From an uncultured Bacteroidales bacterium (GTDB taxonomy: Bacteria > Bacteroidota > Bacteroidia > Bacteroidales > Paludibacteraceae), in assembly GCA_946185835.1 (NCBI GenBank), contig CAMHKW010000008.1, positions 1-64,000 on the forward strand: a stretch of DNA of 64,000 nucleotides. Reading direction: 5' to 3'. Of the stretch, positions 2,214 to 15,761 are shown piece by piece. The translations under genes and the position numbers were made by a program. The notes under the pieces are model-generated. The model made no database searches, was not told the DNA's origin, and saw only the letters and a list, made by a program, of their open reading frames with translations. Position 1 is the first letter of the stretch. Each line of letters begins with the position of its first letter.

Positions 2214-5200
2214 ATGAGTAAAGGAAATATATTTGTAGACAGGAAGGTGATGGCAGTGTGTATCTCGCTGCTTATTGCCTTGGTTGGCTTTATATGCCTC
2301 AATACTCTGCCTATCGAGCAGTATCCTGATATAGCTCCGCCTACTGTGATGATTACCACCTCGTATAGCGGTGCCGATGCCAACACGGTGATGAAGTCGG
2401 TGGTGATGCCTATCGAGGAGGCTGTCAATGGTGTGGAGAATATGGCATATATGACCTCCGAAGCCTCTGCCACTGGTGAGGTGAGTATCAATGTCTTCTT
2501 CAAGCAAGGCACCGACCCCAACATGGCTGCTGTCAACGTGCAGAACCGCGTCTCAGCAGCATTGGGACTGTTGCCCCAAGAGGTGACGCGCGTGGGCGTG
2601 AAGGTGGAGAAACGGCAGAATAACATCTTGCAGATCACAGCCCTCGTAAGTCGTGATGGCAAGTTCGATAACGATTTCATAGCCAACTATATCGACATCA
2701 ATGTCAAGCCTCGTCTGTTGCGTGTTACGGGTGTGGGAGCTGTGCAGAACTTAGGTAACACCTATTCGCTACGAATCTGGATGAAGCCCGACGTGATGGC
2801 TCGATATGGTATCGACCCTCAGGATGTCTTCGCTGCTATAGGCAATCAGAACATGGTAGCTGCCACCGGTTCTCTTGGTGAGCAGAGCGGCAACACCTAC
2901 CAATATAACCTCGAGTACAAAGGTCGTCTGCAGTCGATAGAGGAGTTCGAAGACATTGTGTTGCGAACCTCCAACGGCAATGTGCTTCACCTGAGGGATG
3001 TGGCAGACGTAGAGCTTGGAGCACTCAGCTATAGCTTCTCGTCGCGTGTTGATGGTCAACCCGGCGTGGCTTTTATCATCAACCAAGCCCCGGGTGCTAA
3101 TGCCACCGAGGTCAACGCTGCTATTGGCGAGATTTACAGCGATCTCAAGAAGTCGATGCCTGCCGGGCTGGAATTTACCACATTGCAGACCTCCGATGAC
3201 TTCCTCTTTGCCGCTATACACAATGTGGTGGAGACGCTGATTATAGCCATCATCCTCGTCATCCTTGTGGTTTATTTCTTCCTTCAGAATTTCAAGGCGA
3301 CTCTTATCCCGTCGATTTCTATCATAGTATCGCTATTAGGTACTTTTGCTGTGGTTAAGGTGGCCGGCTTCTCGCTCAATATCTTAACCCTGTTTGCGTT
3401 AGTGCTTGCCATAGGAACTGTCGTTGACGATGCCATTGTGGTTGTTGAGGCGGTGATGGCGAAGATGGAGTCGGGCTACAAATCGGCTTATAAAGCCACC
3501 AAAGACGCCATGAGCGAAGTGACGGTTGCGGTTATCAGCTGTACGCTTGTCTTCATGGCGGTGTTTATACCTGTGACTTTCATGCCAGGCACCAGCGGCA
3601 CTTTCTTCACGCAGTTTGGTATCACCATTGCCAGCTCTGTTGGTCTGAGTTGTATCTCGGCGCTGACTCTCTGTCCGGCACTGACAGCTTTGCTGTTCAG
3701 ACCCAAAAACGAACAGAAAGAAGAACGCAAAGGTCTCAACTACTATGTTAAGACAGCTTACGAGACAGGCTATAATGCCATACTGGGCAAATATAAAAAC
3801 GGAGTGTCACGATTCTTGCAGAAACCGAATAGGGCATGGTTGTGGCTGATAGCGGCTGTCGTACTCATGGTGTTTGCGATGCGCGGTCTGCCCTCGGGCC
3901 TTGTGCCCCAAGAAGACCAAGGCGTTATCTTGGTTGACGTTACAGCACCTGCCGGCTCTCCACTTGTCGAGACCGACAAGATAATGGCTCAGGTAGAAGA
4001 ACATGTGCTCAGGTTAGAAGAGGTAGAGAGTTATGCCAAGATCTCCGGCTTCGGCCTGTTGTCGGGTACGGGCGTGAGCTATGGTACACTCGTCATACGT
4101 CTTAAACCATGGGAACAACGCAAAGGTTATGAACATTATATTGATTATGTAATGGGCAAACTTTATCTCTCATGTGAAGACATCAAAGATGCTCAGATTA
4201 TTCCTTTCCAGATGCCTCAGATTCCTGGTTACGGTAACAGCGACGGTATCGACCTGCAGATGGAAGACCTGCAAGGCGGTGACATGTCGCAGTTCAACAC
4301 CGTGGTCAACGATTTCCTTGCCGAGTTGCAGAAGCGTGAGGAGGTGCAGTTGGCGATGTCGCTCTATTCCGAGTCGTTCCCGAAATATAAAGTCGACGTC
4401 AATGCTACTCAGTGCGACCGTGCCGGTATCTCACCCGACGTGGTGCTGAATACCCTCGGTGCATACTGTGGTAGTGCATATATCAGCAACTTCAATCAGT
4501 ATGGTAAAGTCTACCGTGTGATGGCAGGAGCCGCACCTGAGTACCGTCTCGACCCAAACTCGCTTAATAACATCTTCGTGCGTGTCGGCGACCAGATGGC
4601 TCCGATAGCGCAGTTCGTCACCCTCACGCCTTCCGTGGGATCGGCTACCCAAAAGCGTTTTAACCTTTATCAGTCGATAGCTTGCTCTGTCAAACCCAAT
4701 AGCGGCTATAGCGATAGTGACGTACAGCGCGTCATCGCTGAGGTAGCAAAAGACCATCTGCCTGCCGGATACGGATACGAGTACGGAGGTATGAGCCGTG
4801 AGTTAGAGGCAAACAGCAAGTCGAATCTCACTCTGCTTATTTATCTGGTCTGCATACTGCTTATTTACATGATTCTGGCTTCGCTCTACGAGTCGTTCTT
4901 TATTCCGTTCGCAGTCCTCTTGTCGGTACCGTTCGGTCTGATGGGTTCGTTTGCCTTCTCATGGCTTTGCGGGCAACAGAATAACATATACTTGCAGACA
5001 GGTGTGATAATGCTTATCGGTCTGCTTGCCAAAACCGCTATCCTCATCACCGAGTTCGCGGTTGAGAAGCGTAAACAAGGTATGCCTATCCTTGAGGCTG
5101 CCTTGAAGGCATGCGAAGATCGACTCAGACCTATCTTGATGACCGTCATCACGATGATAGCAGGTATGATACCGCTTATCATCGAAGGCGGTGCCGGTGC

Positions 5201-6752
5201 CAATGGCAACCGCGCGCTGGCTATTGGCGTCACAGGCGGTATGGCAGTCGGCACTCTCGCTCTCGTGTTCGTGGTGCCTGCCTTCTATATCATCTTCCAG
5301 AAGCTGCACGAGCGTTTCCAAGGTGGCGAATCCGAAGCCGAGGCTGCTGTGCAGCCGGCGGAGTCGGAACCGCAACCCTCAGGCAAGAAGCCTGTGGCAG
5401 GGGTGATAGCTATAGCAGTGGTCGTAGGTTCGCTCTCGCTCTCGTCGTGCTCCATTTTTAAGCAATACCAACCCGCCGTGCAGCCGCAGCAAGACTCGGT
5501 GGTTACGGCGGTGAGCGAGGCTGATTGGAAGTCGTATATCGAAGACCCCGTGTTGCAAGGATATATAGAGAAAGCTCTGAACAGCAATGTCGACTACCGC
5601 TCTCGTCAGTTAGCTGTGCAGACAGCCGATGCCCGCCTTCGTGCTGCTAAACTCGGCTTTGTGCCAACACTCGCTCTTAGTCCGGCAAGTGTCGGGGTGT
5701 CGGGTACCGTCACTCCTGGTAGTGGTGCTTCCGGTGCTGTGCTGAGCTATCAGGTGCCCATTTCGCTCAACTGGGGTGGGGAAGGATTCGGAACCCTCAC
5801 CAACCGTAAGCGTCAGGCTGACGTGCTCCGAGCACAAGCCGAGGATAACCTCGCGGTGGCGCATGCCAACCTCGTGGCTACCATGGCAAGAGCTTATACT
5901 CAGCTCCAACTGCTCGACTACCAAGCACTCATACTCGACAGCACCGAGCTTATCTGGCAGCGCGTGCTTCAGGTGCAGCGCGTCTTAGTGAAGAACGGGC
6001 AAGCCTACTCGCCATCGGTCGGGCAGATGGAAGCCTCACTGATCAACGTGCAGATACAACGTCGGCAGCTGTTGGAACAGATCAACTCATTAGAGCTCAG
6101 TATGTGTATGCTGATGAACGAAGAACCTCATACCATAGCACGCTCGCCATGGCAGAGTTATGCCTTCGACGAATGGACTCTCGAGCCGGTGCCGGCTGCT
6201 CAGTTGAGCAACCGCGCCGACGTGCGCGCGGCAGAACGCAACGTGGCTGTGGCTTTCTATCAGACTAACATGGCGAAAGCTGCCTTCTGTCCTGCTCTGT
6301 CGCTGTCCGGACTCATCGGATGGACCAATAACGGGGGCGTGGTTGCCAACCCGGGACAACTGCTCATGAATGCCGTACTCGGGTTAGCACAGCCTATCTT
6401 CGCAGGCGGCAAACTGAAAGCCAACCTCACCGTGGCTAAGATAGAACAAGAGGAGGCTGCCAATCGCTATGTCGAGACCATGCTCCGTGCCGGTAGCGAG
6501 GTCAACGATGCTATGTTCCGCTGCCGCAATGCACAAGAGCAAGACGCACTCTATCAGCGACTGCTCACGACACAACGAGAAGCTTACAACGGGACATGCG
6601 AACTCATGCAAAAGGGCAAGGCCACTTATCTCGAAGTGCTTACTGCACAAGACGCTTATCTGAAAGCTCAACTTGCAGACGTCACCAACCGCTATAACGG
6701 ACTAATCAGCCTCATCGACCTCTATATCGCTCTCGGAGGAGGAACGAAATGA
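2214..6752 (+). CDS. RND (HAE1/AcrB-type) inner-membrane pump fused to a TolC/OprM-type outer-membrane factor
   Basis: AcrB-like residues about 1-1030 (IEQYPDIAPPTVMI, GTVVDDAIVVVEAV, GLLAKTAILITEFA), then acidic linker, hydrophobic segment with LSSC, then OMF-type coiled-coil/barrel repeats (ADVRAAERNVAVAFYQTN, PIFAGGKLKANLTVAKIEQ). Confidence 0.9.
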   Translation: MSKGNIFVDRKVMAVCISLLIALVGFICLNTLPIEQYPDIAPPTVMITTSYSGADANTVMKSVVMPIEEAVNGVENMAYMTSEASATGEVSINVFFKQGTDPNMAAVNVQNRVSAALGLLPQEVTRVGVKVEKRQNNILQITALVSRDGKFDNDFIANYIDINVKPRLLRVTGVGAVQNLGNTYSLRIWMKPDVMARYGIDPQDVFAAIGNQNMVAATGSLGEQSGNTYQYNLEYKGRLQSIEEFEDIVLRTSNGNVLHLRDVADVELGALSYSFSSRVDGQPGVAFIINQAPGANATEVNAAIGEIYSDLKKSMPAGLEFTTLQTSDDFLFAAIHNVVETLIIAIILVILVVYFFLQNFKATLIPSISIIVSLLGTFAVVKVAGFSLNILTLFALVLAIGTVVDDAIVVVEAVMAKMESGYKSAYKATKDAMSEVTVAVISCTLVFMAVFIPVTFMPGTSGTFFTQFGITIASSVGLSCISALTLCPALTALLFRPKNEQKEERKGLNYYVKTAYETGYNAILGKYKNGVSRFLQKPNRAWLWLIAAVVLMVFAMRGLPSGLVPQEDQGVILVDVTAPAGSPLVETDKIMAQVEEHVLRLEEVESYAKISGFGLLSGTGVSYGTLVIRLKPWEQRKGYEHYIDYVMGKLYLSCEDIKDAQIIPFQMPQIPGYGNSDGIDLQMEDLQGGDMSQFNTVVNDFLAELQKREEVQLAMSLYSESFPKYKVDVNATQCDRAGISPDVVLNTLGAYCGSAYISNFNQYGKVYRVMAGAAPEYRLDPNSLNNIFVRVGDQMAPIAQFVTLTPSVGSATQKRFNLYQSIACSVKPNSGYSDSDVQRVIAEVAKDHLPAGYGYEYGGMSRELEANSKSNLTLLIYLVCILLIYMILASLYESFFIPFAVLLSVPFGLMGSFAFSWLCGQQNNIYLQTGVIMLIGLLAKTAILITEFAVEKRKQGMPILEAALKACEDRLRPILMTVITMIAGMIPLIIEGGAGANGNRALAIGVTGGMAVGTLALVFVVPAFYIIFQKLHERFQGGESEAEAAVQPAESEPQPSGKKPVAGVIAIAVVVGSLSLSSCSIFKQYQPAVQPQQDSVVTAVSEADWKSYIEDPVLQGYIEKALNSNVDYRSRQLAVQTADARLRAAKLGFVPTLALSPASVGVSGTVTPGSGASGAVLSYQVPISLNWGGEGFGTLTNRKRQADVLRAQAEDNLAVAHANLVATMARAYTQLQLLDYQALILDSTELIWQRVLQVQRVLVKNGQAYSPSVGQMEASLINVQIQRRQLLEQINSLELSMCMLMNEEPHTIARSPWQSYAFDEWTLEPVPAAQLSNRADVRAAERNVAVAFYQTNMAKAAFCPALSLSGLIGWTNNGGVVANPGQLLMNAVLGLAQPIFAGGKLKANLTVAKIEQEEAANRYVETMLRAGSEVNDAMFRCRNAQEQDALYQRLLTTQREAYNGTCELMQKGKATYLEVLTAQDAYLKAQLADVTNRYNGLISLIDLYIALGGGTK

Positions 6753-6792: not shown

Positions 6793-7635
6793 ATGAAACG
6801 ATTTTATTGGTTTATAGCATTTGCATTACTTAACGCCACTTCAATTTTGGCACAACAAGACGACCATATCATCGATGGTTTGACTTCTGTTGCCGCTATC
6901 GCCGGTGAGACCAAGACCGCTGATTCACCGCAAGTAAGCGCATCGGTCGATTCGCTGAAAAAAATAGAGATCCCTGTGTGGAAGCAGAAGCTCTATTATG
7001 GCTACAAATTCGACATCTATTACCATCAGGACTCGCGTTCAGCTACCAAAGAGAATGGTTATTCTATTTCACTCACCCCCGAAATAGGATGGCGTGTGAA
7101 AGAGAAATTCTATGTCGGACTTCGCTTCGGTGGTACTTATCAAGACACTTATGCATCGTATAGCTATGAGGCATTAGACGGTACCATCCAGACCGAAGGC
7201 TTGCGCATACAGCAAGGCAGTTGGGAAGTAACCCCCTACGTGCGCTATCGGCTGAAGACTCTTTTCAACGACAAGGTGGGTGTATGGCTCGAAGCACACC
7301 TCTATGCCGGCATGGATTTTCCGCGCGTTACCGACGGCATAGTGAAAGGTACCGACTACGAAGGACTCAGACATAACATCACCTATGGTGCGCAGGTGTC
7401 GCCTGTGATAACATATCAGTTCAACAAGAAGAGCACCTTCCAGATATTCTTCTCTATCCTAAGCATAGGATATAGCGGAACTACATTCTGCTATACCGAC
7501 CCGAATACAGGCAAAAACTACAACGAGTTTACCAACGATGTGATAATCTTCTCGGGTAAACTGCGCAACCTGATAGCGAATCAGTTCACGCCCGGATTAT
7601 ATGGTCTGAGGTTAGGTGTGCAAAAAAGTTTCTAA
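6793..7635 (+). CDS. Outer-membrane beta-barrel protein
   Basis: Signal peptide, alternating aromatic/hydrophobic strands, C-terminal LRLGVQKSF. Confidence 0.7.
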   Translation: MKRFYWFIAFALLNATSILAQQDDHIIDGLTSVAAIAGETKTADSPQVSASVDSLKKIEIPVWKQKLYYGYKFDIYYHQDSRSATKENGYSISLTPEIGWRVKEKFYVGLRFGGTYQDTYASYSYEALDGTIQTEGLRIQQGSWEVTPYVRYRLKTLFNDKVGVWLEAHLYAGMDFPRVTDGIVKGTDYEGLRHNITYGAQVSPVITYQFNKKSTFQIFFSILSIGYSGTTFCYTDPNTGKNYNEFTNDVIIFSGKLRNLIANQFTPGLYGLRLGVQKSF

Positions 7636-10600
7636 ATGAAGTATAAGTCGCTGTTGTGGAAGGTCCCGCTCGCTTTGGCAGGCGTGGTGATGGGGTTAGC
7701 ATTGCTGTTGCTCGTAGCGGCTGCGGTAGTGTTGTATGTGCCTTCGGTGCGCACGGCAGTGTTGCACAAAGGCGTTGCTATAGCCAACGAGAAAACCGAC
7801 TTTGACATCGACTTAGGACGCATATACCTCTCGCCTTTCTATCACTCTCCCAAAGTCTTGTATAATGCCTACAAAGGTGTAGCAGACTTGCCCCTCAATG
7901 TCGAAATCGACAGTTTGTTTGTCGGACATCGCGGACAAGACACCTTGGCTTATGTGCATGCTCTTCGTCTGAAAGCTAAGATGCTCACTTCCGATGGCGC
8001 TACCGACATCTTATCCACGCCTATCGTTGTCGACTACTTGCATTTAGAGCAGACTACTTTCCATTCCGACAGTATGATAGCCGCTGTGGGTATTGATGCC
8101 GTGGTGGGTCGATTAGATGTGGCAAGCCCTAACCTGAATATCGCTAAAGGGCAGTTCCCGCTTTATGGTCTGAGCCTCGATGGTGCCGACGTAGGCATCG
8201 ACCTGCGCCCCACGCAGCCCGACACCACCGTCAAAGACACCACGCGCAAGCCGATGAGCTTCGACATACCCGATGGCAGCTTGAGCGACATACACTTCGC
8301 TCTCACTCCTACCGGACTCGATGTCAAGACACGGCAGCTCGCTGTCGACGCTCTGATAGATGTAGGCAACAACAGGTTTGATGTACACAAACTCGATATC
8401 GGCAATGCCTCGCTCGCAATAGGCAGTCTGTATCTGCCCTTCGACACCGTCTACGGCAATGCCTTGGTAGACCTTCGGCAGTCGCTCATCACCTCGCAAG
8501 GGTTACATGCGAGCTCCGATTCGTTGGGAGCGATAGCCGATGTCAAGGCTACCCGTCTCAACTTAGAGACGATGCATGTCGATGTTGTTGCCGATGCCGA
8601 TTTCCGCGGGAGCAAGGCGAGTGTGCGCGGCTTCTATGATATCGACGACGCAGCATACGACGCACAAGTCGACATCGAGCGTGTCGACCTCACTCCTTTC
8701 CTCAAAGACTCTACACCGGTAGTAGTGGCGGGCAAACTGAAAGCTAAAGGCAGGGGAATAGACCCACTCTCGTATGCAATGCAAAGCGAGGTGGCTCTGA
8801 ACCTTGACGATTGTGTGTATGGCGATATCGATGTATCCGGTATTGCTCTCGATGCCAAAGTGGCAGGCAAGACCGCCGATGGTACGTTGCATCTGCCGGT
8901 TAACCTCAAACGTGATGAATTGCGGGTGAAGGCACTCACTGACCATCAGTTCAGGGTGACGGACTTCTTGAAACCCGAGCAGATGGCGGTCGACTATCAT
9001 GCCAAGATGCGCCGAGTGCGAGCACATGTTGCAGGTGAAGACTTCAACGCCGAGACGTTGCAACTCAATTTTTTAACCGATAGCACCACCACGCTCGACC
9101 TCTCTACCGAAGGACTGAGTTTGGACCTCAAGAGTCCGATGCACGCCATGAGTCTTGTCAGCCGCCTTCAGCCTCTACTGAGCATGGTAGGCGACTCGTC
9201 GGTCATCAAGCCTATTACCACACTGCGTGACTTGACGCTGATAGATACGCTCCGGCATGCCATACCGCCCTTGCAAGCCAACATCAACCTTACCAAAGGC
9301 AGCCCCGTGCAGTTCCTTATCGAACGCGCAGGGCTTGACATCAACAAATTCGACTTGTCGCTTCTGTCCGACGAGCAAGAGACTCTGCTTGCTGCCGATG
9401 CCTCCATACCTGTCATCGAACACCCCGAAGACAGTACAGCCCTGCGGTTGCCTGCCGCCAAAGCAGCCATGACGGTGACGATGGCGGAGAGAAAGACAGA
9501 CGTCACGCTGAAGGCTGATAGCCGACTCACCGATGGCGCAATGACTATTCATAACCTCAATGCCGACGCCGACCTGTGTCTTGACTTAGAACGTGTCGAC
9601 AACGAAGTGAATGGCTCAGGATATCTCACCCTTAGCAATCTGCGATACGAGACTATGGACCTTGGCGACCGCAGTATGGATATCAAAATCACACCTTCAC
9701 AACGCTACCCACATTCCATACAAGCCGATGCGAGATTAGATGATGTCCCCCTCAAACTCTTAGATAACATTCTGCATCTGCCTGATATCGACCTGAAGGG
9801 AGCAGTCAGGGCACAAGCCGCTGTCGATGGTCTGCCATCGAAAGTCGACCTCTCAGCCCGTGTGTTGCCTCTTGCCGTATCAGCCGAATACAAGCCATAT
9901 CAGGTGCTGCTCTCTCTTGGCGAGACACCGATAGTGATGGAGCACAACCATCTGAACCTTAACGGGCTGCCTATCTATGGCGTTGATAGCACCTTCCTCG
10001 CTCTGACCGGTGGTCTGAACCTCGATAGTATGCGCTTGGATGTCGCACTCGAGGCTGATAGCTTCGCACCGGTCAAGTTAGTGAAAGGCGGACCGATACC
10101 GGTATATGGCGAGCTCGCCACCGATATCAGTGGTAAAGTAACCGGACCATTGGATAAGATAATGGCTGATGTCGATGTCACCATCTTACCCACCACCGAC
10201 ATCACCTATCCGATAGATAAGAAGAACCTCGCACAAGTAAAGCCGCACGGTACCGTCAATGTGAAATACGATGTAGCCGAAGGCGCACTCAACTTAGGGG
10301 GTAGGGTAAATGTCGACGATGGCGTCATACGCTATTCGCCTCGTATATACCCCGTGATGCCTTTCAGTGTCGACTCGGGTAGTCATGTCCTTTTCAACGG
10401 ACCATTAGGTCAGGCATTGGTTAATGTGTCGGCGTCGCAACACGTGAAAGCCGACGTCGAATCGGGTGGTGAGGAGACGCGACGGGTCGACTTCAACACC
10501 GGCGTCAGGGTAAACGGCGTAATCGACTCGTTAGGCCTCAATGCTATCGGTTTCTTCCTCGAAGCACCTCAAGAAGAGGCTGTCACACGCGAGCTAAGCT

Positions 10601-12444
10601 CGCTGGACGAAGAGACGCGCGAGGGCTTGGCTGCCACACTACTGGCTACGGGTATGTATGTGGGTGAGAGCAACGTGGCGGCACAGCGCGAAGGCTACGC
10701 CCTCTCGTCGATAATCAACAGCCGCATCAACGCTGCCATGGCTAACTCCAAAGTGGGGAAGTTTATGGATATCGACATCAGTAGCGGACAGACCAACCAT
10801 GCCTCAGGTAAGACCAACGACATGAACATCTCTATCAGTAAGTCGTTCTTCAAAGATAAACTGAGAGTCACTGTAGGCTCGTCGATATCTGATAATCCCG
10901 AGGTGAATAACAACAGCGGACTGTTTCGTAGTCTGACCGCCGATTATAAACTCACCAAAGACGGCAACGTGATGCTACGCTTGTTCTCGCAGCGCGACTA
11001 TAACAACATCCTTGAGGGCGAACTCTATAAGTCAGGACTCAGTGTGTTGGCAACCAAAGACTGGCAGCGGCGCGAACTGTTCCGTACGGATAGTCTTGTC
11101 AGGACATATTCACTGACAGCCGATGCGGGTGTGGCATATAGGTCTAACAACTCGCTCGGACCTAACCTCACCCTTAAGTCGTCAATCAAAAACCTGTTTG
11201 GCAACGGCGAGACCTTCTCGCTGAAAGGTAACGGAGCTTACTATTGGGCACTGCGCAACCGTCATCCCGGTGACCCTAAGAAGACCGACACCTATAAACT
11301 CGGACTCAATGCCTCACTCATCTTCCCGTTTTTGCATTGGGGTTCGATCGAAGATGGTGCCTCCAGACCCGAAGGTGATACGCGTTATATGCTTGGCTAT
11401 CAGTATGAGAATATAGCGGGAGGGTACGGAGTACATAAGTTCTCGGGTTCGTTTACATATTTCATCCGCTCGCCTTTCAGTCCGTATATCGTTCACTCGT
11501 TCACCCCCTTCTCGCTCTCTGTGGTGCGCATGAAAGCCGAGTCAGAAGACCTGCTCGATAAGGCTGCCGAATACCCGCAACTCATCAATGTCATCGCCGG
11601 TGACGAGTTCGTGCCGTCAATCGGTTACAACTTCAGCTACAACGACTACCGCGACAAACGCCCGGTCAACACTATGCTCGACCTGACCGTCAAAGAGTCG
11701 GGTAACCTAATCAATGCCCTCTATACAGCCTTCGGATATAAATGGGACGACAAGGACAAACCGCTTGGCAAGATTACCTTCAACCAGTTTGTCAAACTCT
11801 CTGCCGAGTTGCGTAATAAATTCAATCTGACAGAAAAGGTATGCATCGCCACGCGTGTGTTTGCAGGTGCTAATATGCCTTTGGGAAATTCGATGTTTGC
11901 GCCGCTATCAGAGGCTTTCTATGCCGGTGGCCCGAACTCACTGCGAGCATCAGCACCCTACGCCTATGGTCCCGGCAACTTCTATTCGGCTAAGTATAAC
12001 CAGAACTTCTTCCATGCCGGTGATTTCAAACTCGAAGCCAACTTCGAGCTGCGTTTCCCTATCGTGTGGAAACTCTATGGCGCCACCTTCCTCGATGCAG
12101 GTAATGTATGGAACTGGTATTCTACCACCGAGTTATACAAGGCTGCCGGATACGAAGACTATCTCACACGTTTTGAGATACCTACCGACTTGAACGATGG
12201 TGTCTTCGGCAACAAAGACTTCGCCCGCCAGATTGCACTCGGCACAGGTGCCGGACTCCGACTCGATATCGACGGACTCGTCGTCCGACTCGACCTCGGA
12301 ATCGGCATACATGCACCTTACCAGACATATAAATACGATAAAGACGGCAAAGTCGACTACACACAACCTATCAACACCTATTACAATATACCGTCAGTAC
12401 TCGATGCCCTGCGCGTCAACTTCGGCATAGGATACCCCTTCTAA
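7636..12444 (+). CDS. TamB-like translocation/assembly protein fused to a C-terminal TamA/TamL (Omp85-type) barrel
   Basis: N-terminal TM anchor and long beta-rich AsmA/TamB region with C-terminal DUF490-like segment (to ~11070); then barrel with AFYAGGPNSLRASAPYAYGPG, GDFKLEANFELRFPIVWKLYGATFLDAGNVW and terminal VNFGIGYPF. Confidence 0.85.
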   Translation: MKYKSLLWKVPLALAGVVMGLALLLLVAAAVVLYVPSVRTAVLHKGVAIANEKTDFDIDLGRIYLSPFYHSPKVLYNAYKGVADLPLNVEIDSLFVGHRGQDTLAYVHALRLKAKMLTSDGATDILSTPIVVDYLHLEQTTFHSDSMIAAVGIDAVVGRLDVASPNLNIAKGQFPLYGLSLDGADVGIDLRPTQPDTTVKDTTRKPMSFDIPDGSLSDIHFALTPTGLDVKTRQLAVDALIDVGNNRFDVHKLDIGNASLAIGSLYLPFDTVYGNALVDLRQSLITSQGLHASSDSLGAIADVKATRLNLETMHVDVVADADFRGSKASVRGFYDIDDAAYDAQVDIERVDLTPFLKDSTPVVVAGKLKAKGRGIDPLSYAMQSEVALNLDDCVYGDIDVSGIALDAKVAGKTADGTLHLPVNLKRDELRVKALTDHQFRVTDFLKPEQMAVDYHAKMRRVRAHVAGEDFNAETLQLNFLTDSTTTLDLSTEGLSLDLKSPMHAMSLVSRLQPLLSMVGDSSVIKPITTLRDLTLIDTLRHAIPPLQANINLTKGSPVQFLIERAGLDINKFDLSLLSDEQETLLAADASIPVIEHPEDSTALRLPAAKAAMTVTMAERKTDVTLKADSRLTDGAMTIHNLNADADLCLDLERVDNEVNGSGYLTLSNLRYETMDLGDRSMDIKITPSQRYPHSIQADARLDDVPLKLLDNILHLPDIDLKGAVRAQAAVDGLPSKVDLSARVLPLAVSAEYKPYQVLLSLGETPIVMEHNHLNLNGLPIYGVDSTFLALTGGLNLDSMRLDVALEADSFAPVKLVKGGPIPVYGELATDISGKVTGPLDKIMADVDVTILPTTDITYPIDKKNLAQVKPHGTVNVKYDVAEGALNLGGRVNVDDGVIRYSPRIYPVMPFSVDSGSHVLFNGPLGQALVNVSASQHVKADVESGGEETRRVDFNTGVRVNGVIDSLGLNAIGFFLEAPQEEAVTRELSSLDEETREGLAATLLATGMYVGESNVAAQREGYALSSIINSRINAAMANSKVGKFMDIDISSGQTNHASGKTNDMNISISKSFFKDKLRVTVGSSISDNPEVNNNSGLFRSLTADYKLTKDGNVMLRLFSQRDYNNILEGELYKSGLSVLATKDWQRRELFRTDSLVRTYSLTADAGVAYRSNNSLGPNLTLKSSIKNLFGNGETFSLKGNGAYYWALRNRHPGDPKKTDTYKLGLNASLIFPFLHWGSIEDGASRPEGDTRYMLGYQYENIAGGYGVHKFSGSFTYFIRSPFSPYIVHSFTPFSLSVVRMKAESEDLLDKAAEYPQLINVIAGDEFVPSIGYNFSYNDYRDKRPVNTMLDLTVKESGNLINALYTAFGYKWDDKDKPLGKITFNQFVKLSAELRNKFNLTEKVCIATRVFAGANMPLGNSMFAPLSEAFYAGGPNSLRASAPYAYGPGNFYSAKYNQNFFHAGDFKLEANFELRFPIVWKLYGATFLDAGNVWNWYSTTELYKAAGYEDYLTRFEIPTDLNDGVFGNKDFARQIALGTGAGLRLDIDGLVVRLDLGIGIHAPYQTYKYDKDGKVDYTQPINTYYNIPSVLDALRVNFGIGYPF

Positions 12445-13075: not shown

Positions 13076-13127
13076 CGGTAGTAGCTTGGTAATCGGCGGC
13101 AGAAAGAAATATAAGAACTACAACATT

Positions 13128-15761
13128 ATGAAAGCCAGACTATTCTTTTGCTCGGTAGTATTGTCACTCGCATCGTTGTATGTCGGTGCGGCTCCTTCGG
13201 GGCGCTCGCTCAATAACACCCTTCATGAGCTTAGAGCCGAGTTGCAAGCTTCGTACGTTCAGCGTAGCGAAGCACAAAAAGCGTTAGATGTCGATTACGA
13301 ACGACAGCACCAGCGTATGCTCGGTGTGATAAAATCGGTCAATGAGCTGTCGCTACTGCTATACACGCAAGAGCAGAAGCGTACACTCGATATGTCGTAC
13401 GCCTTGCATAAGGTTACCGAGGGCTATCGCGACTTCAACAAAGACAAACGTCCGTACGACCAGATTATCTTCGGTCTGGAATACGAAATCGACCGTTATG
13501 CGCGTTTGATAGAAGCTCTACGTCGTCTCCCGCCCGAACTTGTCGACATCGACAATGAACTGGTGCCCGATAGTCTGCTCTACCATAACGACACTTTGGA
13601 GACGTATCTTGCCGGTACGATGTCGTCGCTCGAGAAAGAGATAATCGAAATAGCAGGCAGCGACACAGCTTCGTCGCTTTATATCTTGGACGATGCCGGC
13701 AACATCTATCGTGACAGCTGTATTCTATATGCAGCCGAACTGCTCAGGATGTATGCCTCAAACCGTGTCGTCGTTATTGCCGATAGCACCTACTATCAGG
13801 AGGCATACCTTAGAGTGAAAGAAGCATACGATTATGCAGAGGCTCGATATACCGACTTAGACAATTATATATATCAAGACGGACAAACACCTTACATCAA
13901 TATACTTTCCGACTTCGGTTACTATTGGTCGAAGATGAAAAGAGCATTGAGCGACCAATATGATATGATAGGGATGATAAATGCGAGCAGCGAAGATGAT
14001 AACTATAATAAGTTATCGGGTCGTACGGAGAAAGCTTTTTTAGTACTACTCAGTATAGCCCAATTATTGGTGATAGCTGTAATTTGGCTCCCTATATTAT
14101 TGTTGCTGTGGTTGCTCAAACGCTTTACCCGCTGCCGGAAATATCTGTCGGACAAACCACTTGTATTGCTCTCGGTACTGATAGGCACCATCGTCTATTT
14201 TTTGCTGGTAGGCAACTACGGACAAGCAAGCGATTATATGAGAGTGGGTGTTCGGAATCTGCATATCTTCCTATGGCTGCTATTTGCTATAGCCGGCTCG
14301 TTGCTGCTACGTATCGACTCCGAACAACTGCATAAAGGAGGGCGTATCTATGTGCCTACGCTTCTCACCTCGTTTGTGATTATCATGTTGCGCAACATCT
14401 TCGTTCCGGATATCGTCCTCAATATCTTTCTTCCGTTCATTCTGTTGATTGCCGTATTGTGGCAGTTGACAATATGCCTAAGAGTAAGAGGTCATGTCGC
14501 TCGGATAGATAGTATACTCGGCTGGGTGGCGCTGTCGGTTTATGTCGTGACGCTGTTGATTTCTTTCTTCGGGTACTGCTTTGCTGCATTGCAATACTTA
14601 GCGTTTTGGTATTTCTTGTTAGCAGCCCTGCTCACTATCTTCTGTATCTCGGCTTTGCTCGACCGTTTCAAAGACAAGTATCTCAACAAGCGCATCGACG
14701 ACATGCGCAAGCGTATCACCTATGCCCCCGGCAACGACGGCGAGACGCTTCTGTTTGGTGCTACATGGTTCTACGACCTAATCAAAGAAGTGATAATACC
14801 CGTAATAGCGGTACTCGCATTGCCGTGGAGTGTGATGATGTCGCTTAATATGTTCGATTTCACCGACCTCTATGCCCGCTACTTCTACGACCCGTTTGTC
14901 TCTATTCCCGACGTCACAACGGGCAAAGCCGCGTTCAGCATCTCGGCTATAAGCATAGTAGCGTTGGTAATACTGTTCTTTGTGATACGCTATCTGAACC
15001 GAGCTGTGCATGCCATCTATCACTATGCTGTTTTTACCAACTTCATGCACAAGCATAAGCGAACAAGCATACGCGACAACGAAATCAATCTCTCGTTGGG
15101 CAATAGCCTGATTAGTGTGGTGGTTTGGGCAATATATGCCATAGTGATTATCAACGTGTGGAACATACCCACCGGCTCGTTAGGACTTATCGCCGGAGGT
15201 CTGTCGGCAGGTATCGGTATCGCTATGAAAGATACTATCAACAACTTCATCTATGGCATTCAGCTGATGGGAGGGCGTCTGAGGGTAGGCGACTGGATAG
15301 AGTGCGATGGCGTGAGAGGAAAAGTAACAGCCATCAACTACCAATGTGTGCAAGTCGAGACACTCGACAACACCGAGATGTCGTTCCTCAACGAGTCGCT
15401 CTTTGGCAAGAACTTCAACAACCTCACACGCAACAACTCTTACGAGCTGACCAAGATAGTGGCGAGTGTAGCTTATGGCACCGATGTGCAGAAAGCGCGC
15501 GAAGTGATAGTCAATGCTATGCAAGTGCTCCGGACGAAAGACCGCTACGGCAGAGAAATAGTGCATCCCGACAAAGGTATATATGTGGTGATGGGGGATA
15601 TGAGCGAGAGCTCAGTCGACTTGGTCGTCAGACAGAAAGTATTGGTGGCAGAGCAAATACCATACGTCTACAAAGCCAAAGAGATAATATACAACGCACT
15701 CAACGAGGCAGGTATCTCTATCCCGTTCCCGCAATGCGATGTGCATATCGTCAATGGTTAG
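13128..15761 (+). CDS. MscS-family mechanosensitive ion channel with large N-terminal region
   Basis: GLSAGIGIAMKDTINNFIYGIQLMGGRLRVGDWIECDGVRGKVTAINYQCVQVETLDN; ATG at 13128 begins a signal peptide. Confidence 0.9.
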   Translation: MKARLFFCSVVLSLASLYVGAAPSGRSLNNTLHELRAELQASYVQRSEAQKALDVDYERQHQRMLGVIKSVNELSLLLYTQEQKRTLDMSYALHKVTEGYRDFNKDKRPYDQIIFGLEYEIDRYARLIEALRRLPPELVDIDNELVPDSLLYHNDTLETYLAGTMSSLEKEIIEIAGSDTASSLYILDDAGNIYRDSCILYAAELLRMYASNRVVVIADSTYYQEAYLRVKEAYDYAEARYTDLDNYIYQDGQTPYINILSDFGYYWSKMKRALSDQYDMIGMINASSEDDNYNKLSGRTEKAFLVLLSIAQLLVIAVIWLPILLLLWLLKRFTRCRKYLSDKPLVLLSVLIGTIVYFLLVGNYGQASDYMRVGVRNLHIFLWLLFAIAGSLLLRIDSEQLHKGGRIYVPTLLTSFVIIMLRNIFVPDIVLNIFLPFILLIAVLWQLTICLRVRGHVARIDSILGWVALSVYVVTLLISFFGYCFAALQYLAFWYFLLAALLTIFCISALLDRFKDKYLNKRIDDMRKRITYAPGNDGETLLFGATWFYDLIKEVIIPVIAVLALPWSVMMSLNMFDFTDLYARYFYDPFVSIPDVTTGKAAFSISAISIVALVILFFVIRYLNRAVHAIYHYAVFTNFMHKHKRTSIRDNEINLSLGNSLISVVVWAIYAIVIINVWNIPTGSLGLIAGGLSAGIGIAMKDTINNFIYGIQLMGGRLRVGDWIECDGVRGKVTAINYQCVQVETLDNTEMSFLNESLFGKNFNNLTRNNSYELTKIVASVAYGTDVQKAREVIVNAMQVLRTKDRYGREIVHPDKGIYVVMGDMSESSVDLVVRQKVLVAEQIPYVYKAKEIIYNALNEAGISIPFPQCDVHIVNG

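Follow-up and report, generated by a model that had tools for sequence, protein, structure and literature searches.

A POTRA-free fusion of TamB2 and a TamL2-type Omp85 barrel in Paludibacteraceae, and its reading as a single-chain second TAM

Can a TamB protein and an Omp85 barrel be one and the same polypeptide, with no POTRA domains between them, and what state of the barrel would such a chain adopt? The question is raised by a gene in the window, i.e., the stretch of 64,000 nucleotides from an uncultured Bacteroidales bacterium of the Paludibacteraceae that we analysed, where a first-pass annotation had proposed that an uninterrupted open reading frame holds TamB fused directly to the barrel. 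The open frame was confirmed: the gene (7636..12444, + strand, as for all parts of the chain described here) encodes 1602 amino acids in one frame. At its N-terminus lies a membrane anchor (residues 17-35, 7684..7740; Kyte-Doolittle 2.9), the sole TM-like segment of the chain, and a TM-like N-terminus is shared by 85 of the 87 full-length fusion homologues. The proposed single-chain topology from inner to outer membrane thus holds, and relatives have it too. The TamB beta-groove, or beta-taco, spans residues 36-976 (7741..10563) and falls ~400 aa short of its counterpart in unfused TamB2; BLAST aligned residues 33-223 and 759-1141 with the TamB2 protein L038, the part from residue 36 to 699 was assigned by homology, and strands run from residue 718 to 976 in an AlphaFold model that covers residues 700-1602. 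Next come helices (residues 981-1036, 10576..10743; DSSP on the model, partly at low pLDDT) and six C-terminal TamB strands (residues 1044-1146, 10765..11073; DSSP and alignment of TamB2 C-termini), the last of which includes ...ILEGELYKSGLSVLATKDW... A junction loop of 8 residues (1147-1154, 11074..11097) then leads into a TamL2-type Omp85 barrel with 16 predicted strands (residues 1155-1602, 11098..12441), an assignment based on Pfam, NCBIfam, BLAST, AlphaFold and Foldseek. Within it, the loop-6 (L6) motif GGPNSLRASAPYAYGPG (11926..11976) aligns with those of TamL and TamL2, and its Arg is invariant in 25 fusions; the FLDAGNVW motif is kept (12088..12111), and the chain ends in GIGYPF (12424..12441), a BAM-type beta-signal whose terminal F occurs in 98 of 98 unique fusions. 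The model, computed with 138 sequences, has a mean pLDDT of 79.4 and a pTM of 0.56, with low confidence in some loops and in the helix region (1019-1061). Its boundaries, residue 1146 (nucleotide 11073) for the end of TamB and 1155 (nucleotide 11098) for the start of the barrel, agree with the first-pass placement of the TamB end at about 11070 and of the barrel within about ten residues.

The identity of both halves was established by homology. For the barrel, Pfam PF01103 (Omp85) matched residues 1383-1601, and the NCBIfam TamL model NF052279 matched residues 1036-1602, below its cut-off and from profile position 214 of 747, which implies that the chain lacks the N-terminal part of TamL. For the TamB half, PF04357 gave no direct match to the chain, and the identification instead runs through TamB2: a TamB2 homologue matched PF04357 with 116 bits, residues 700-1143 aligned with 18 TamB2 sequences, the last TamB strand included (hhalign probability 100, E 2e-52), a TamB2 C-terminal profile scored the chain at 198 bits, and stretches of the fusion from residue 33 up to 1150 aligned with TamB2 of other Bacteroidales as far as the TamB2 C-terminus. 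From residue 1158, the alignment continues with TamL2, starting at TamL2 residue 345-364. Unfused TamL2 carries a POTRA at 293-355 (Pfam), directly before its barrel, so that the fusion resumes just past this domain; what the junction lacks is a stretch of ~350 aa with the lipoprotein signal and POTRAs of TamL2. Pfam and the AlphaFold model (residues 700-1602) revealed no POTRA in the fusion, as had been claimed, and neither a lipobox Cys nor a lipoprotein signal precedes the barrel, which TamB joins directly. The start of the NF052279 match at residue 1036 could have suggested a POTRA remnant, which was rejected, as Pfam on residues 860-1190 and the model show none. The linker, counted from ATKDW to SLTADAG, is 15 residues long in the window and in 83 of 99 aligned rows, with a range of 4-24 (the 4 residues occurring in one sequence), and is thus too short for a POTRA throughout.

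Set against the features by which such proteins are recognised, the chain has the membrane anchor, beta-groove and C-terminal domain with helices and six strands of TamB/TamB2, and the Omp85-type 16-strand barrel of TamL with L6 and FxDxG motifs; it has neither the lipobox of a TamL barrel protein nor the three POTRA domains before the barrel. In PMC11116518, the Omp85 superfamily is defined by a 16-strand barrel plus at least one POTRA. The fused barrel is homologous to Omp85 and yet, with its POTRA missing, breaks this usual definition as worded there (PMC11116518). Searching the PDB sequences with the full-length chain gave no match, and a promoter and terminator scan found sites no more numerous than in shuffles.

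As to its origin, sequence comparison allows the parents of the fusion to be identified as the TamB2-TamL2 gene pair of Bacteroidota. In unfused relatives, tamB2 is followed by an adjoining tamL2, the two mostly overlapping or within tens of bases of each other; in F. johnsoniae, the tamL2 start precedes the tamB2 stop, both genes can be deleted and are non-essential, and the two proteins have no known function (PMC12045153). Other genera of the family do have an unfused TamB2: a sample of 120 family genomes contained 8 (three genera) with a clear unfused TamB2 (E < 1e-80), 6 with the fusion, and none with both. In a tree, the fused barrels group together as a single clade (100/100), nested within the TamL2 radiation and set off by a long stem. 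A look for separate tamL or tamA genes had been suggested, and the genome of the window does encode, at other loci, a TamL of the ordinary kind (contigs C2 and C26), which carries a lipobox and POTRAs, as well as an ordinary TamB (contig C6), so the fusion is additional and has not replaced the main TAM. This canonical TamL shares 26.7% identity with the fused barrel. The canonical TamB is disfavoured as a parent, since its profile matches the fused TamB weakly (prob 7, E 0.005), which points to TamB2 instead. The canonical tamL locus is present on both C2 and C26 (L044, L045), oppositely oriented but with matching genes and lengths, either a recent duplication or assembly redundancy.

The fusion recurs widely within the family. 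Among 37 genomes of the same genus, 25 (counting that of the window) hold a one-frame homologue, with 59-91% identity across residues 700-1602, and in the family as a whole such homologues were found in 84 of 300 genomes and 4 of 33 genera. The 80 named loci are all labelled Paludibacteraceae or Bacteroidales and are mostly ruminant-derived. Outside the Paludibacteraceae, the fusion was found in three order-level genomes (G254 of family f2, and G137 and G322 of family f101), while a 396-genome sample of the phylum yielded no further genomes with the fusion at E <= 1e-60; two other matches in that sample were separate TamL2-like proteins of ~800 aa. The f2 and f101 members nest inside the Paludibacteraceae diversity in the tree, consistent with a single origin and later horizontal transfer, with long branches leaving their exact placement uncertain. 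Three genomes (G678, G688 and G696) gave two fusion matches each, one of those in G688 being a 482-aa open fragment.

The position of the join, between the last strand of TamB and barrel strand 1, is what suggests a state for the barrel. In cryo-EM structures of E. coli TamAB, a 1:1 complex, the last TamB strand pairs with strand 1 of TamA in a hybrid-barrel state, a non-hybrid state is about equally common, and both are found in vivo; deletion of POTRA2 in TamA is lethal (PMC12800296). A 22-strand TamL-TamB hybrid barrel has been predicted for F. johnsoniae (PMC12045153), and for Borrelia, AlphaFold3 predicts a BamA that is completed at its strand 1 by six strands of TamB (PMC13382580). The fusion bridges the same strand pair as the E. 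coli hybrid by a short turn. In the AlphaFold model, DSSP assigned strand to residues 441-447 (model numbering), which strand 5 does not reach; this would be expected if barrel strand 1 were their pairing partner. A covariation analysis of 109 fused sequences (Neff 88.5) placed the antiparallel diagonal between the last TamB strand and barrel strand 1 at rank 16 (MI) and 40 (mean-field DCA) of 3759, at an index sum of 901 versus 903 from the DSSP turn. These ranks fall within the range of accepted hairpins in the same chain, with the caveat that some strand pairs that are not neighbours reach scores equal to those of true hairpins. Together, the DSSP pattern and the covariation provide supporting evidence, not proof, for a predicted hairpin between the last TamB strand and barrel strand 1.

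On this basis, we think it fairly probable that the gene encodes a single-chain, POTRA-free second TAM that is locked in the hybrid-barrel state and delivers cargo to the barrel seam. An ancestral tamB2-tamL2 pair, adjacent and often overlapping, would have fused with loss of the TamL2 lipoprotein signal and POTRAs. The N-terminal helix would anchor the chain in the inner membrane while the hydrophobic TamB groove spans the periplasm, BAM would recognise the C-terminal GIGYPF and insert the barrel, and the last six TamB strands and 16 TamL strands would form one sheet by way of the predicted hairpin. Because a short turn links the two strands of the hybrid barrel covalently, the lateral gate would stay open, filled by strands of TamB itself. 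In E. coli, the POTRAs contact TamB near the barrel and hold it close to TamA; once the gate is covalently occupied, they may become dispensable. The POTRA handoff would then be functionally removed, as first proposed, and the chain presumably stays whole in the cell. Phospholipid transport has been proposed for TamB, and the groove may hand its cargo, phospholipid and/or nascent OMP, straight to the barrel seam. The strongest form of this reading, in which a permanent 22-strand TamB-TamL hybrid spans both membranes with no POTRA and no cycling between states and has its own small outer-membrane barrel partner, we advance tentatively, at somewhat less than an even chance.

The best candidate for such a client or partner is the product of the gene directly upstream, OMP280 (6793..7635, + strand), a small outer-membrane beta-barrel protein of 280 aa with a signal peptide and a C-terminal F, whose stop abuts the ATG of the fusion (TAA|ATG). 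AlphaFold modelled it with moderate confidence as a beta-barrel of approximately ten strands, and Foldseek found weak similarity to OmpA/OmpW/OprG-like small barrels. Of 84 fused loci, 57 have a gene of this type as their immediate upstream neighbour on the same strand, and within the genus it was present in 23 of 25 fusion-positive versus 0 of 12 fusion-negative genomes (Fisher p 5e-8, uncorrected for relatedness), including where the two genes lie on different contigs (G007, G021 and G619). These associations could also mean that the fusion is a dedicated assembly factor that folds or inserts OMP280, with lipid movement not its main job. OMP280 was, however, not found in the fused genomes of genera g212 and g213, of G590 in the same genus, or of families f2 and f101, and it may serve as a partner instead of a client; we regard an assembly-factor role of the fusion as possible but doubtful, and it is compatible with the single-chain TAM explanation.

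Other neighbours (RND pump, antiporter-like protein, MscS channel, amidohydrolase and others) were considered as parts of the system and rejected, as they vary between loci. Two genes upstream in the window (2214-6752, + strand) lies another fusion that links inner and outer membrane components, of an AcrB-type RND permease (PF00873) to an OprM/NodT-type outer membrane factor, which are also fused in L188 (1510 aa) and are two separate genes in L192; its join carries a lipobox-like stretch, VVVGSLSLSSC, at which signal peptidase II might cut the chain. A large MscS-type mechanosensitive channel (13086-15761) is one gene away from the fusion in the window, and an MscS-type channel with 38% identity sits directly beside the fusion, in convergent orientation, in L183 and L184, from two genomes of family f101. 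A gene for a cation/proton antiporter-like membrane protein follows on the same strand at 14 of 95 fusion loci (e.g., L018), at 26-72 bases in the examples inspected, and in L189 a Na+/H+ exchanger gene (PF00999) overlaps the 5′ end of the fusion from upstream.

The covalent join could alternatively act as a tether only, with a self-closed 16-strand barrel (strand 1 paired with strand 16) and TamB strands that stay in the lumen or periplasm and engage reversibly. Such behavior would resemble E. coli TamAB, which occurs in both states at about 1:1 (PMC12800296), and linkers of up to 24 residues would give some slack; the best matches of the model among solved structures in Foldseek are, moreover, TamA crystal structures, though the TamA barrel is matched loosely (rmsd 6.6, TMt 0.68). 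Against it, the commonest linker is a short turn, shrinking to 4 residues in one sequence, and covariation points to the hairpin between TamB and barrel strand 1 with no signal between strands 1 and 16 (ranks 378 in MI and 995 in DCA), a pair for which the nearly invariant strand 16 gives little power. The first of the six TamB strands ranked 97 (MI) and 347 (DCA) with the same nearly invariant strand 16, so covariation does not settle which strand closes the barrel. Overall, we judge a mere tether unlikely, and we retain the locked hybrid barrel as the preferred reading.

A post-translational cut, which would yield two separate products, one TamB-like and the other a barrel devoid of POTRAs, is considerably less likely still. 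The junction loop is indeed the least conserved stretch of the join, as cleavage might predict, but by inspection the linker contains no lipobox or signal-peptidase-like site, and it is always short. Moreover, dN/dS across the junction is 0.02-0.08 in pairs with unsaturated dS, i.e., purifying selection acts across the junction and on both of its flanks, and a fusion that gains nothing from the covalent link would leave the loss of the POTRAs unexplained. An assembly or sequencing artefact, for which it speaks that the fusion sequences of named origin derive from metagenome assemblies, has a negligible chance of being correct: it is already refuted by the recurrence of the fusion in relatives, with 98 unique one-frame sequences after duplicate removal from many independent rumen metagenome assemblies, and by the purifying selection at the junction.

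Compared with known systems, the parts of the fusion are familiar, their arrangement is not. The fusion shares with F. johnsoniae TamB2-TamL2 (Fjoh_1899/Fjoh_1900) a homologous TamB C-terminus and barrel, the tamB2-tamL2 order seen in unfused relatives, and coexistence with an ordinary TamB and TamL, whereas the latter are two proteins, with TamL2 a predicted lipoprotein with POTRAs and TamB2 ~400 aa longer than the fused TamB part (PMC12045153). With E. coli TAM it shares a groove from the inner membrane to an Omp85 barrel, a 1:1 ratio, and the predicted pairing of the last TamB strand with barrel strand 1, but E. coli TAM has two chains and three POTRAs, and its hybrid alternates with a non-hybrid state (PMC12800296). 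The modelled Borrelia BamA-TamB likewise has six TamB strands completing an Omp85 barrel at strand 1, but in two chains and with POTRAs on BamA (PMC13382580). The canonical TamL and TamB of the window's own genome belong to the same superfamilies as the fusion but lie at separate loci, with lipobox and POTRAs on TamL. A fixed 1:1 stoichiometry, which the first-pass annotation had put forward as a consequence of the fusion, is not new, being already known from E. coli TamAB (PMC12800296). The new element is where the join falls, namely between the two strands that pair in the hybrid barrel, and our literature search of open-licence papers found no description of a TamB-Omp85 fusion, in line with the original impression of novelty.

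The hybrid barrel of TamA or BamA with TamB could be either transient or a form that does the work: one study suggests a regulated intermediate (PMC13382580), another finds both states in vivo (PMC12800296). A natural fusion at the hybrid strand pair, selected across many species after loss of the POTRAs, is evolutionary evidence that the joined state can function. The fusion also presents an Omp85 barrel without any POTRA and offers a one-chain target for structural and lipid-transport work, and OMP280 may provide a first lead on the role of TamB2 and TamL2.
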